Assembly: GCA_021325475.1 (NCBI GenBank)
Contig: JAJPHA010000044.1
Location: 26,328-90,327 of the forward strand
Direction of reading: 5' to 3'
Length of the DNA: 64,000 nucleotides
DNA from: Rhodanobacteraceae bacterium
GTDB taxonomy: Bacteria; Pseudomonadota; Gammaproteobacteria; Xanthomonadales; Rhodanobacteraceae
Positions 39,940 to 45,218 of the stretch are shown in pieces. Numbering within the stretch: the stretch's first letter is position 1; each line of letters starts with the position of its first letter. The notes beneath the pieces were generated by a model that had not been told where the DNA came from, did not search any database, and was given only the letters and a program-made list of their open reading frames with translations. Made by a program: the position numbers and the translations under genes.

Positions 39940-40995
39940 TCAGCGCAACGCGGCGTTGATCTTCGCCAGCGTCGCCGCGCCGGGACTGAGTTCCTTCGCG
40001 CCGAGGCGATGGAACGGTGTCGGCACGGTGTTGAGGTGCCGATGCAGGTCCTCGGCCTCGGCGTCCACGTACAGCAGACCGGTCACCACCTCGCCCTTGG
40101 CCTGGCGCTCGTGCACGTAGGCGAGCGCGGCCACGCGGTCGTGCGGATCATGGTTGGCGTGCAGCTTGCGCAGCCGCAGCACGCTGCCGTCGTGCTGGGT
40201 GATGTCGATCAGCTCGCCGGCGGCGTAATCCACCACGATCTCGTCGCGCACGTCGATGAAGTCGAGCCGGTTCGCCGCCTCGTTGTGCTCGCGCACGTAG
40301 TCGTAGCTCTTGGTGCTGCCGGGATGGTTGTTGAACGCCACGCACGGGCTGATCACGTCCAGCACCGCCGGGCCGCGGTGCTTGATCGCCGCCTTGATCA
40401 GCGGCACGAGCTGCTTCTTGTCGCCGGAAAAGCCGCGCGCGACGAAGCTCGCGCCGAGCTGCAGCGCGAGACCGACCAGATCGAGCGGACTGTCGGTGTT
40501 GACCACGCCCTTCTTCGACTTCGAACCCAGGTCCGCGGTGGCGGAGAACTGGCCCTTGGTCAGGCCGTAGACACCGTTGTTCTCGACGATGTAGACCATG
40601 TTCACGCCGCGGCGGATGGCGTGCACGAACTGGCCGATGCCGATCGACGCGGAATCGCCGTCGCCGGAGACGCCGAGATAGATGAGTTCGCGATTCGCCA
40701 GATTGGCACCGGTCAACACCGACGGCATGCGCCCGTGCACGGTGTTGAAGCCGTGCGACTGGCCGAGGAAATAGTCCGGCGTCTTGCTGCTGCAACCGAT
40801 GCCGGAGAGCTTGGCCACGCGATGCGGTTCGATGTCGAGTTCCCAGCACGCCTGGATGATCGCGGCCGAGATCGAGTCGTGGCCGCAGCCGGCGCACAGC
40901 GTGGAAATCTTGCCTTCGTAGTCGCGGCGGGTGAAGCCGATCGCATTGCAGGCGAGCGTGGGATGGTGCAGTTTCGGTTTGGCGATGTAGGTCAT
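39940..40995 (-). CDS. korB: 2-oxoacid:ferredoxin oxidoreductase, beta subunit (KorB)
   Basis: TPP-binding subunit of a 2-oxoglutarate- or related 2-oxoacid:ferredoxin oxidoreductase. 351 residues: an N-terminal STLCAGCGH cysteine pair for [4Fe-4S] binding, SGIGCSSKTPDYF, the TPP motif region LIYLGVSGDGDSASIGIGQF to VENNGVYGLTKGQFSAT, and VLDVISPCVAFNNHPGS. It is the last gene of the operon; its ATG overlaps the stop of the small membrane protein gene (ATGA). Whether 2-oxoglutarate or another 2-oxoacid is used cannot be read from sequence. Confidence 0.92.
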   Translation of the reverse strand: MTYIAKPKLHHPTLACNAIGFTRRDYEGKISTLCAGCGHDSISAAIIQACWELDIEPHRVAKLSGIGCSSKTPDYFLGQSHGFNTVHGRMPSVLTGANLANRELIYLGVSGDGDSASIGIGQFVHAIRRGVNMVYIVENNGVYGLTKGQFSATADLGSKSKKGVVNTDSPLDLVGLALQLGASFVARGFSGDKKQLVPLIKAAIKHRGPAVLDVISPCVAFNNHPGSTKSYDYVREHNEAANRLDFIDVRDEIVVDYAAGELIDITQHDGSVLRLRKLHANHDPHDRVAALAYVHERQAKGEVVTGLLYVDAEAEDLHRHLNTVPTPFHRLGAKELSPGAATLAKINAALR

Positions 40996-41282
40996 GACTT
41001 CGCACTCCGCTGCGCGGCTTGGTATTCCGTCCAGGCGTGGCCGGCGAGGCCGATCGCGAACACCAGCACGCCCACCGGCCAGATCACCCGCAGCAGCGGC
41101 AGCCGGGCGAACCCGTCCGGAACGAACAGCACGAGCCGGCACACCACCGCGACGAGTTGTCCGGCCAGCGCCAGCGACGGCCAGAGCGTCTGGTGGCGCA
41201 GCCACAGCAGTACACACGCGCCGAGCACGAGCAGCCCGGCGATCACGGAAACCAGATTGGCGAGGTCCAGGGGAATCGTCAT
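40992..41282 (-). CDS. Small three-pass membrane protein between korA and korB
   Basis: A 96-residue hydrophobic protein with three predicted membrane segments: LVSVIAGLLVLGACVLLWL, LWPSLALAGQLVAVVCRLVLFV and LLRVIWPVGVLVFAIGLAGHAW, ending in a charged tail YQAAQRSAKS. No family recognised. Its start overlaps the korA stop and its stop overlaps the korB start, both as ATGA, so it is translated in lock-step with the two oxidoreductase subunits. That position suggests membrane attachment or electron-acceptor coupling of KorAB, which is inference only. Confidence 0.75.
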   Translation of the reverse strand: MTIPLDLANLVSVIAGLLVLGACVLLWLRHQTLWPSLALAGQLVAVVCRLVLFVPDGFARLPLLRVIWPVGVLVFAIGLAGHAWTEYQAAQRSAKS

Positions 41283-43120
41283 GCGACCTTGTCCTTGCCG
41301 ATCGGCGCTACCCGCGCGGCGCGCAGGTGCGCGCCGATCGCCTCGGCGATGAAGCGCGCCGTGATCGGCGTGCCGTCGTAGTGCAGGATCGGCACGAGCT
41401 TGGCGGGGTCGATGCCGAATTCGTTGACGAGCAGCGTGCGCAACTGGCCGTCGCGGTTCTGCTCGACGACGAACACCGCCTCGTGCGCGGCGATGAACTC
41501 GGCCACGCTGTCGGCGAACGGGAACGCGCGCACGCGCAGCGTGTCGAGATTGAGGCCGTCGTCCTCCAGCGCCGCGATCGCCTCGTCCATCGCCGGGCTG
41601 GTCGAGCCGTAGTAGATCGCGCCGTGCCGTGTCTTCTGCCGCGCCGCGCGCGGCACCGGCGCCGGCACCAGGGTCCTGGCGGTGGCGAACTTCTTCAGCA
41701 GACGCTGCATGTTGTAGACGTAATCCGGCCCGCGCTCGGAATAGCGCGCGTAGGGGTCGCGCGAGGTGCCGCGGGTGAAGTACGCGCCCTTGCTCGGGTG
41801 CGTGCCGGGATAGGTGCGGTACGGAATGCCGTCGCCATCGACGTCCTTGTAGCGCGCGAATTCCTTGCCCGCTTCGAGCTCCGCGGCGGTCATCACCTTG
41901 CCGCGATCGTATTCGCGCGCATCGTCCCAGACGAACGGCGCGGTGAGCCGCTGGTTCATGCCGATGTCGAGGTCGCTCAGCACGAAGATCGGCGTCTGCA
42001 GGCGGTCGGCGAGATCGAGCGCCAGCGCCGAGAACTCGAAGCACTCGTGCGGATCCTCGGGGAACAGCAGCACGTGCTTGGTGTCGCCGTGCGAGGCGTA
42101 GGCGCAGGCGAGCACGTCGGACTGCTGCGTGCGCGTCGGCATGCCGGTGGACGGGCCGCCGCGCTGCACGTCGATGATGGTCACCGGAATCTCGGCGAAA
42201 TAGGCGAGCCCGATGAATTCGTTCATCAGCGAAATGCCGGGACCGGAGGTGGTGGTGAACGCGCGCGCGCCGTTCCAGCCGGCGCCGACCACGATGCCGA
42301 TCGAGGCGATCTCGTCCTCGGCCTGGACGATGGCGAACTTGTTCGCTCCGGTCTCCGCATCGACGCGATATTTCATGCAGTACTTCTGGAATGCCTCGGC
42401 CAGCGACGACGACGGCGTGATCGGATACCACGCGCATACGGTCGCGCCGCCGTACACGCAGCCGAGCGCGGCGGCCGAGTTGCCGTCGACGAAGATGCGC
42501 TCGCCCACCGCATCCGCGCGCCGCACCTGCAATCCGATGGGATGGGCGAGATGCTCGCGCGCGTAGTCGCGGCCGAGCTCCAGCGCCTTGACGTTGGAGT
42601 CCAGCAGTTTCTCCTTGCCCTTGTACTGCTCGCCGAACAGCTTGCGGATTTCCGCATCGTCGATGCCGAGCAGCACCGACAGCGCGCCGACGTACATGAT
42701 GTTCTTGAACAACTGACGCTGGCGCGCATCCGCGTAGGTGCGGTTGCAGATCGCGGTCAGCGGCATGCCGATGACGACGATGTCGTCGCGGAACTTCGAC
42801 GGCGGCAGCGGCTTGGTGCTGTCGTAGAACAGGTACCCGCCGGGCGCGAGCTCCTTGACGTCGGCGTCCCAGGTCTGCGGATTCATCGCCACCATCATGT
42901 CCACGCCGCCGCGCCGGCCGAGCCAGCCGCGCTCGTTGACGCGCACCTCGTACCAGGTCGGCAGGCCCTGGATGTTCGAGGGAAAGATGTTGCGCGGACT
43001 CACCGGCACGCCCATGCGCAGGATTGCCTTGGCGAACAGCTCGTTGGCGGAGGCCGAGCCCGAGCCGTTGACGTTGGCGAACTTGATGACGAAGTCGTTG
43101 GTGGCGGTGATGGGTTTCAT
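41279..43120 (-). CDS. korA: 2-oxoacid:ferredoxin oxidoreductase, fused gamma-alpha subunit (KorA)
   Basis: A 613-residue subunit. Residues 1-190 are the gamma domain (NDFVIKFANVNGSGSASANELFAKAI, RGGVDMMVAMNPQTWDADV), then the alpha (pyrimidine-binding) domain with the invariant TSGPGISLMNEFIGLAYFAE, VQRGGPSTGMPTRTQQSD and EDPHECFEF, and a C-terminal domain with YGSTSPAMDEAI. The fused gamma-alpha form is known in bacterial KorA. In relatives the enzyme oxidises 2-oxoglutarate to succinyl-CoA with ferredoxin reduction, alongside or in place of the 2-oxoglutarate dehydrogenase complex. The start at 43120 is the first ATG beyond the palindromic spacer. Confidence 0.93.
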   Translation of the reverse strand: MKPITATNDFVIKFANVNGSGSASANELFAKAILRMGVPVSPRNIFPSNIQGLPTWYEVRVNERGWLGRRGGVDMMVAMNPQTWDADVKELAPGGYLFYDSTKPLPPSKFRDDIVVIGMPLTAICNRTYADARQRQLFKNIMYVGALSVLLGIDDAEIRKLFGEQYKGKEKLLDSNVKALELGRDYAREHLAHPIGLQVRRADAVGERIFVDGNSAAALGCVYGGATVCAWYPITPSSSLAEAFQKYCMKYRVDAETGANKFAIVQAEDEIASIGIVVGAGWNGARAFTTTSGPGISLMNEFIGLAYFAEIPVTIIDVQRGGPSTGMPTRTQQSDVLACAYASHGDTKHVLLFPEDPHECFEFSALALDLADRLQTPIFVLSDLDIGMNQRLTAPFVWDDAREYDRGKVMTAAELEAGKEFARYKDVDGDGIPYRTYPGTHPSKGAYFTRGTSRDPYARYSERGPDYVYNMQRLLKKFATARTLVPAPVPRAARQKTRHGAIYYGSTSPAMDEAIAALEDDGLNLDTLRVRAFPFADSVAEFIAAHEAVFVVEQNRDGQLRTLLVNEFGIDPAKLVPILHYDGTPITARFIAEAIGAHLRAARVAPIGKDKVA

Positions 43121-43286
43121 GCGAGCTCCCCGCCCCACCCTTCTCCCATCGGGAGAAGGTGGCGCGAAGCGCCGGATGAGGGTTCGACATCGACAACCGG
43201 CAACACCGAGCTCGGACCCTCACCCCTGCCCCTCGCCCGGCGGGAGCGGGGTGCAAGCGACGCGAGTGGATTGAGTGCCGGGCGCA
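43121..43286. repeat. Palindromic spacer repeat between the flavoprotein gene and korA
   Basis: Contains CCACC-C-TTCTCCC-ATC-GGGAGAA-GGTGG (43135-43161), a 12-bp stem with one bulged C, and further right CCCTCGCCC-GGCGGGAGCGGGG. Similar CCCTCACCC...TCTCCCG blocks occur at 3935-3985. I read it as a common Xanthomonad-type intergenic palindrome that may attenuate transcription into korA. Confidence 0.5.
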
Positions 43287-45110
43287 TCACGCCGCCTCCC
43301 GCCGCGCCGGCTTGTGGCACGCGGGCCCGGCATGCGTCATCTCGAGCAGGAACTTGCGCATGTCCCAGGCGCCGGTGGGGCAGCGCTCCGCGCACAGGCC
43401 GCAGTGCAGGCAGACGTCCTCGTCCTTGACCATCACCCGGCCGGTCTTGAGCGTATCGGAAACGTACAGCGCCTGGTCGAGGTTCCGCGCCGGCGCGGTC
43501 AGGCGCTGGCGCAGCTCGGTCTCCTCGTCGTTCCAGGTGAAGGTGATGCAGTCCATCGGACAGATGTCGACGCAGGCGTCGCATTCGATGCAGACGTCCC
43601 TGGTGAACACGGTCTGCACATCGCAGTTGAGACAGCGCTCGGCCTCCTTGAACGCGGTCGCCGGATCGAAGCCGAGCTCGACTTCCACTATGATACTTTT
43701 CAGCGTTTTTTCCTTTTCCCGCCACGGCACCGCGTAGCGCGCGTCGGCGGAGACGTCGTTGTCGTAGCTCCATTCGTGGATGCCCATCTTCTGCGAGATC
43801 AGGCTCACCGACGGCTCCGGGCGCTGGCGGATGTCCTCGCCGTTGAGCAGCTTGTCGATCGACACCGCCGCCTCGTGGCCGTGCGCCACCGCCCAGATGA
43901 TGTTCTTCGGGCCGAACGCCGCGTCGCCGCCGAAGAACACGGTCGGGTGGGTCGATTGCAACGTCGTCGCATCGACCACCGGCAAGCCCCACTCGTCGAA
44001 GCGGATGCCGAGATCGCGCTCGATCCACGGAAAGGCGTTCTCCTGGCCGATCGCGATCAGCACGTCGTCGCATTCGAAGAACGCGTCCGGCTCGCCGGTC
44101 GGCACGAGCTGGCGACGCCCCTTGGCGTCGCGCTCGGCGCGCACCTTCTCGAAGGTCATGCCGATCAACTTGCCGTCGCGGTGCGCGAAGGTCTTGGGCA
44201 CGAGGTAGTTGAGGATCGGAATGCCCTCGTGCATGGCGTCTTCCTTCTCCCACGGCGAGGCCTTCATTTCCTCGAAACCGGACCGCACGATCACCTTGAC
44301 GTCCTCGCCGCCGAGGCGACGCGCCGAGCGGCAGCAGTCCATCGCCGTGTTGCCGCCGCCGAGCACGATCACGCGCTTGCCGATCGACTTGACGTGCTCG
44401 AAATACACCGAGGCGAGCCAGTCGAGGCCGATGTGGATGTTGGCCGCGGCTTCCCGGCGGCCGGGGATGTCGAGGTCGCGCCCGCGCGGCGCGCCCGAGC
44501 CGACGAACACCGCGTCGAACCCTTGCGCGAGCAGATCACGCAGCGAGTCGATCCGCGTGTTGCCGCGGAACTCGACGCCGAGATCGAGGATGTAGCCGAC
44601 CTCCTCGTCGATCACTTTCTCGGGCAGACGGAAGCGCGGCACCTGGGTGCGCATGAAGCCGCCGGCCTTGGCATCGGCCTCGAACACGACCACGTGATAG
44701 CCGAGCGGCGCCAGATCGCGCGCCACGGTGAGCGAGGCGGGACCGGCGCCGACGCAGGCGATGCGCTTGCCGTTCTGCTTCGTCGCCGGCTTCGGCAGGC
44801 GCGCGCGGATGTCGTCCTTGAAGTCGGCGGCGACGCGCTTCAGCCGGCAGATCGCCACCGGCTCGGGCTTCTCGCCGTTGTTCTGCTCGACGCGGCCGCG
44901 CCGGCACGCCGGTTCGCACGGCCGATCGCAGGTGCGGCCGAGGATTCCCGGAAACACGTTGGATTTCCAGTTCACCAGGTAGGCGTCGGAATAGCGCCCG
45001 GCGGCAATGAGACGGATGTACTCGGGAACCGGCGTGTGCGCGGGACAGGCCCACTGGCAATCGACGACCTTGTGAAAATAGTCGGGAACGCGGATATCGG
45101 TCGGCTTCAC
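43287..45110 (-). CDS. GltD-like NAD(P)H oxidoreductase with C-terminal ferredoxin domain
   Basis: A 607-residue iron-sulfur flavoprotein. N-terminal Cys-rich helical domain (CQWACPAHTPVPEY, GRTCDRPCEPACRRG), two dinucleotide folds (RIACVGAGPASLTVARDL for FAD; VIVLGGGNTAMDCCRSARRL for NAD(P)H), GGDAAFGPKNIIWAVAHG, then a C-terminal 2[4Fe-4S] ferredoxin domain (CIECDACVDICPMDC; CLHCGLCAERCPTGAWD). The parts match glutamate synthase small subunit and NADPH:ferredoxin oxidoreductases. Upstream of korA and transcribed towards it, it probably passes electrons between ferredoxin and NAD(P)H. GGAG 6 bases before the GTG at 45110 sets the start. Contains GAAAAGTATC at 43692-43701 (minus strand). Confidence 0.9.
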   Translation of the reverse strand: MKPTDIRVPDYFHKVVDCQWACPAHTPVPEYIRLIAAGRYSDAYLVNWKSNVFPGILGRTCDRPCEPACRRGRVEQNNGEKPEPVAICRLKRVAADFKDDIRARLPKPATKQNGKRIACVGAGPASLTVARDLAPLGYHVVVFEADAKAGGFMRTQVPRFRLPEKVIDEEVGYILDLGVEFRGNTRIDSLRDLLAQGFDAVFVGSGAPRGRDLDIPGRREAAANIHIGLDWLASVYFEHVKSIGKRVIVLGGGNTAMDCCRSARRLGGEDVKVIVRSGFEEMKASPWEKEDAMHEGIPILNYLVPKTFAHRDGKLIGMTFEKVRAERDAKGRRQLVPTGEPDAFFECDDVLIAIGQENAFPWIERDLGIRFDEWGLPVVDATTLQSTHPTVFFGGDAAFGPKNIIWAVAHGHEAAVSIDKLLNGEDIRQRPEPSVSLISQKMGIHEWSYDNDVSADARYAVPWREKEKTLKSIIVEVELGFDPATAFKEAERCLNCDVQTVFTRDVCIECDACVDICPMDCITFTWNDEETELRQRLTAPARNLDQALYVSDTLKTGRVMVKDEDVCLHCGLCAERCPTGAWDMRKFLLEMTHAGPACHKPARREAA

Positions 45111-45141
45111 CACTGGCTCCAGGGAAGGCGCAATTGAATCA

Positions 45142-45218
45142 CCATGTTCCTGTCTTCGGCGGCGGCGCCCCCACAACCCCATCGAACCCTTGACTCAAGG
45201 GGCGCAAAGAGCCGGAGC
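45142..45218. repeat. Palindromic dispersed repeat family B, copy 2 (short form)
   Basis: ACCATGTTCCTGTCTTCGGC, then GGCGGCGCCCCCACAACCCC, ATCGAACCCTTGACTCAAGG and GGCGCAAAGA match copy 1 (25936-26053) except that the first hairpin is deleted to a half-site. The gap 45111-45322 holds this repeat and no gene that I can support. Confidence 0.65.

Follow-up and report, generated by a model that had tools for sequence, protein, structure and literature searches.

In the window, i.e., the stretch of 64,000 nucleotides of a Rhodanobacteraceae genome analyzed here, the genes korA and korB, encoding the subunits of a putative 2-oxoacid oxidoreductase, are separated by a gene for a protein of 96 residues that is predicted to span the membrane three times. 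What is a membrane protein doing in the operon of a normally soluble enzyme, and is it a part of this enzyme? In a preliminary description of the locus it was taken as a subunit made at the same ratio as KorA and KorB, through which a membrane-associated enzyme could pass electrons to the respiratory chain. Here, its conservation, distribution, predicted structure and evolutionary history are considered and the possible roles are weighed.

Organization of the kor operon

On the minus strand, a korC-like gene is followed by a dispersed repeat, korA, the small gene and korB (Table 1). KorA contains the domains PF01558 and PF01855 (POR and POR_N) and reaches 573 bits against TIGR03710 (cut-off 482.75), which assigns it to the fused gamma-alpha type. 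KorB shows TPP_enzyme_C above the cut-off and solved KorB-type chains are clear relatives of it, while its score of 204.7 bits against TIGR02177 lies below the cut-off of 261.9. In the korC product, a GltD-like FAD/NAD(P) body is flanked by a Fer4_20 domain of the GltD type at the N-terminus and by a 4Fe-4S dicluster domain at the C-terminus. Its earlier reading as a GltD-like flavoprotein can be kept, but the two [4Fe-4S] centres then assigned to it are fewer than the possible sites offered by Fer4_20 and the dicluster domain together. In most relatives the alignment begins at about residue 22 of KorC, the actual start of which possibly lies later than annotated. The korC-korA spacer, with its repeat of about 120 bp, has 28 matching places in the genome, counting itself.

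Table 1. Features of the kor locus with their positions in the window.
Feature	Position	Strand	Description
korC-like gene	43287..45182	minus	GltD-type FAD/NAD(P) oxidoreductase, 631 aa as read
dispersed repeat (REP-like)	43138..43257	no strand	korC-korA spacer
korA	41279..43120	minus	fused gamma+alpha subunit, 2-oxoacid:acceptor oxidoreductase, 613 aa
small three-helix membrane protein gene	40992..41282	minus	96 aa, accessory gene
korB	39940..40995	minus	putative thiamine-diphosphate beta subunit of 351 aa, distal end of the operon

From these assignments, the operon probably encodes a KorCAB-type 2-oxoacid oxidoreductase with 2-oxoglutarate as the probable substrate. An ordinary 2-oxoglutarate dehydrogenase E1 is also encoded in the same genome and KorCAB is therefore probably not its sole route. 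The linkage of korC holds with or without the small gene: korC lies upstream of korA in 63 of 68 loci of the family, the remaining five being on short contigs or stretches there, and is linked to korAB in 68 of 80 named relatives.

KorA, KorB and a GltD-like FeS flavoprotein are reportedly also united in the enzyme KorCAB of Azoarcus evansii, and in this combination lies the likeness to the window. The difference is the additional membrane protein gene between korA and korB, and for the window substrate and acceptor are putative. In PMC10134865, a subunit of the A. evansii 2-oxoglutarate:NADP+ oxidoreductase is grouped with GltD/NfnB homologues; for KorCAB, this source and PMC8163825 cite Ebenau-Jehle et al. 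(2003). By analogy, the GltD-like protein of the window is the constantly linked KorC of such a 2-oxoglutarate:NADP+ oxidoreductase and, as the protein families also suggest, the electrons should leave KorCAB through this FeS/FAD protein, most likely to NADP+. The 2-oxoglutarate:ferredoxin oxidoreductase KorAB of Thauera aromatica is the same kind of KorAB enzyme; it provides reduced ferredoxin for benzoyl-CoA reductase (Dorner and Boll, 2002, cited in PMC9973337). While the Thauera enzyme feeds benzoyl-CoA reductase, the operon of the window adds a linked korC gene and the optional membrane protein gene.

The korA-korB joint

The korA stop codon TGA (41279-41281) overlaps the ATG of the small gene (41280-41282), and the stop codon TGA of the latter (40992-40994) overlaps the ATG of korB (40993-40995), so that the two ATGA overlaps described before for the 96-residue gene are indeed present at 41279-41282 and 40992-40995. 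The proposed translational lock is reproduced in the relatives on one side: in 14 of 15 homologues the start of the small gene lies at -4 to +11 nucleotides relative to the korA stop (+72 in the remaining one), whereas it ends in the ATGA of korB in only eight of the 15, with its end 8-28 bases before korB in three and further off in four. In two of the latter, G087 and G088, the small gene is followed by two genes for secreted proteins. As korB starts with ATG-ACC, any upstream open reading frame in that frame must stop in ATGA, and since the ATGA is supplied by the korB start, the overlap on this side alone is weak evidence for a translational lock.

In 39 of the 68 family genomes, additional DNA is present at the joint. 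Besides the 15 carriers of the small gene, these are 24 genomes with inserts ranging from repeats to unrelated genes. Another, unrelated membrane protein gene lies between korA and korB in L176 (G063), and L045 (Luteimonas gilva) also has an unrelated membrane protein gene at the joint, the relatives of which are scattered over other genomes, in one of them as two adjacent copies. Proteins with signal peptide-like starts and no Pfam match are encoded between korA and korB in L146 (G088), L149 (G087) and L159 (G068), and L181 (G067) carries an insert of 1.2 kb with two or three open reading frames, the largest without a Pfam match. Among the inserts that do not encode the three-helix protein (L183, L186, L187 and others), a frame is open from the korA stop to the ATGA of korB in 13 of 24, compared to about six of 24 expected from shuffles that leave the relatedness of the genomes uncorrected, an excess hinting at selection for translational coupling.

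Distribution of the small gene

A profile built from five relatives was used to search 234 genomes belonging to the family of the window, with matches at E below 1e-11 counted as strong. It returned 15 strong matches, all of them located between korA and korB. Conservation at this position, which the preliminary description had proposed to check, is thus found in 15 of the 68 family genomes with korAB and a readable joint, but in the other 53 the small gene is missing with korA-korB intact. The operon being unchanged in these 53, which include a species with nearly identical korA and korB DNA, the small protein is not supported as a stoichiometric subunit of KorAB. The carriers belong to three genera, i.e., the genus of the window (4/11) and two others (3/13 and 8/8), while six further genera of the family have none (0/36 genomes).

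The small gene was absent from all 80 named relative loci, mostly from Lysobacterales and Betaproteobacteria, and no credible homologue away from the kor site was found in 399 genomes of the order and 369 of the class (overlapping samples). The lone weak off-site match in the order, L210, was rejected as it lies within a longer, different membrane protein. As far as these genomes tell, the small gene is dedicated to kor. A substitute hydrophobic gene directly after korB was looked for in the genomes lacking the small gene, which gave five scattered open reading frames and no common replacement.

Selection on the small gene

For each of the seven pairs compared, the annotated frame had the lowest pN/pS of the six frames, with values of 0.25-0.66 compared to 0.36-2.5 in the others. 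In the same pairs, korA and korB showed values of 0.08-0.43, those of the small gene being about 1.5 to 4 times higher. Homologues located after korA in 14 other genomes from three genera, together with the lowest pN/pS in the annotated frame, argue against a chance open reading frame; by this comparison, the small gene is real and under purifying selection in its coding frame.

Predicted structure and conserved residues of the small protein

The earlier assignment as a three-pass membrane protein agrees with three hydrophobic stretches (residues 10-28, 36-54 and 61-79) and with three predicted helices (residues 5-29, 34-52 and 63-95; single-sequence AlphaFold model, pLDDT 68). The positive charges are located in loop 1 and in the tail, and an N-out/C-in topology fits the positive-inside rule. 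The cytosolic surface would be tiny, consisting of loop 1 and the tail, which is non-conserved. Conservation is highest in loop 1, helix 2 and helix 3. Across the 15 homologues A38, R49, W68 and A83 are invariant and A22, L26 and W34 nearly so, and position 42 is Gln in the genus of the window and Glu in the two other genera. W34, A38, E/Q42 and R49 are found together on a single face of helix 2. Neither His nor Cys is invariant at any position across the 15 homologues, so that heme or cluster ligands are not expected. This, together with KorC as the likely exit to NAD(P), speaks against the idea that electrons pass to the respiratory chain.

The small protein matches no family in Pfam and NCBIfam searches, a Pfam scan of all 15 members gave scattered weak matches only, and the PDB returned neither a match to the sequence nor a significant match in a fold search with the weak single-sequence model. 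SdhC/SdhD and NuoK resemble it in having about 100 residues and three helices and in being encoded within a redox enzyme operon. These are, however, required subunits, while the small protein is optional and has no conserved heme ligand. A NuoK-like subunit was considered, as size, number of helices and charge of loop 1 are similar, and rejected, since the sequences are unrelated according to hhalign (probability 0.7%). A description of the family was not found in the open-access literature. Neither the small membrane protein family nor its restriction to the site between korA and korB seems to have been described in the libraries searched, while KorCAB itself is known.

Evolutionary history

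In the tree of the small protein every genus forms one group, one of them weakly supported, while on the KorAB tree the presence of the small gene requires six changes. Taken together, the two trees suggest an old presence with repeated loss and some exchange. G006 and G013 form a sister pair with korA and korB DNA about 98% identical over most of the length, and only G006 has the small gene. The identity drops towards the korA end beside the insert, where the korA tail of G006 resembles that of the window, as would be expected from gain or loss of a cassette by recombination. The encoded proteins differ at 4 of 351 positions in KorB and 12 of 613 in KorC, and in KorA mainly towards the C-terminal end; with KorB and KorC nearly identical, the enzyme seems not to need the small protein. 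A co-evolved interface was sought in the Kor proteins of this pair and none was seen. Columns of KorA, KorB and KorC tracking the small gene were also looked for; the differences were few, confounded by phylogeny, and none was decisive. From the trees and the sister pair, the small gene would have originated in, or been acquired by, ancestors of the three related genera on one or a few occasions, would often have been lost and may be mobile as a cassette via recombination in the flanking kor genes.

Possible roles of the small protein

As a whole, the data are best explained by an optional non-redox membrane partner that holds KorCAB at the membrane or modulates it; this is put forward tentatively, its chance lying a little under even. 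The small gene would be translated from the end of korA to give a small, non-catalytic inner-membrane protein of three helices that tethers or modulates KorCAB, with loop 1, which is conserved, and the polar face of helix 2 as possible sites of contact. The membrane-partner interpretation of the preliminary description is thereby partly supported. A pN/pS above that of korA and korB, the tiny cytosolic surface and the lack of a co-evolved interface in G006 and G013 count against a partner role, and since the joint also takes unrelated inserts, part of the genes located at it could simply be passengers.

The latter thought leads to a rather unlikely alternative, in which the small protein has an unrelated job and is expressed via the kor operon from a joint that tolerates inserts. 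Extra DNA is frequent there (L176, L146, L149, L159 and repeats as well as L045 are examples) and most relatives keep KorCAB without the small gene. A passenger would, however, be expected elsewhere too, as is the L045-type insert with its scattered relatives, whereas the small family was never found off-site; the kor-only location thus distinguishes the small gene from likely passengers, and its retention by every one of the eight species in one of the genera also argues against such a status. That the open reading frame is due to chance, or is a spacer retained just for translational coupling of korA and korB, is highly improbable: the ATG-A start of korB forces the ATGA end on any in-frame open reading frame and other inserts are open into korB more often than expected, but frame-specific selection at the protein level and residues invariant across three genera contradict it.

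For a role in the membrane apart from KorCAB, such as a small transporter, a channel or a signalling protein sensing substrate, product, pH or ions, it can be said that conservation lies mostly within the membrane and that operon linkage suggests a shared pathway; no transporter or sensor family resembles the small protein, however, and with three helices only it would need to oligomerize, which makes this role improbable. A redox subunit that anchors KorAB and delivers electrons either to quinone or to the respiratory chain is quite improbable. Being encoded within the kor operon would suit such a subunit, and W68 with the polar E/Q42-R49 face of helix 2 could in principle bind quinone, but a heme or cluster is not to be expected with His and Cys not conserved, neither NuoK, Pfam nor solved structures gave a match, KorC stays as the electron exit, and the enzyme is almost unchanged where the small protein is missing. 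The optional non-redox partner is therefore favoured; a passenger comes next, followed by a small transporter or sensor and then by a subunit linked to quinone. Its more specific form, in which the optional protein docks the normally soluble KorCAB and the membrane-attached enzyme couples 2-oxoacid oxidation locally to a membrane process, is doubtful.

For the biology of the family, the locus presents an undescribed membrane protein family tied to an enzyme of central metabolism, and natural species pairs in which KorCAB is nearly the same but only one member has the small gene allow a direct test of its role. If the small protein does not dock, the locus would be an example of a joint in a core operon that gathers optional genes; if it docks the enzyme, these bacteria would possess a membrane-attached 2-oxoacid oxidoreductase.
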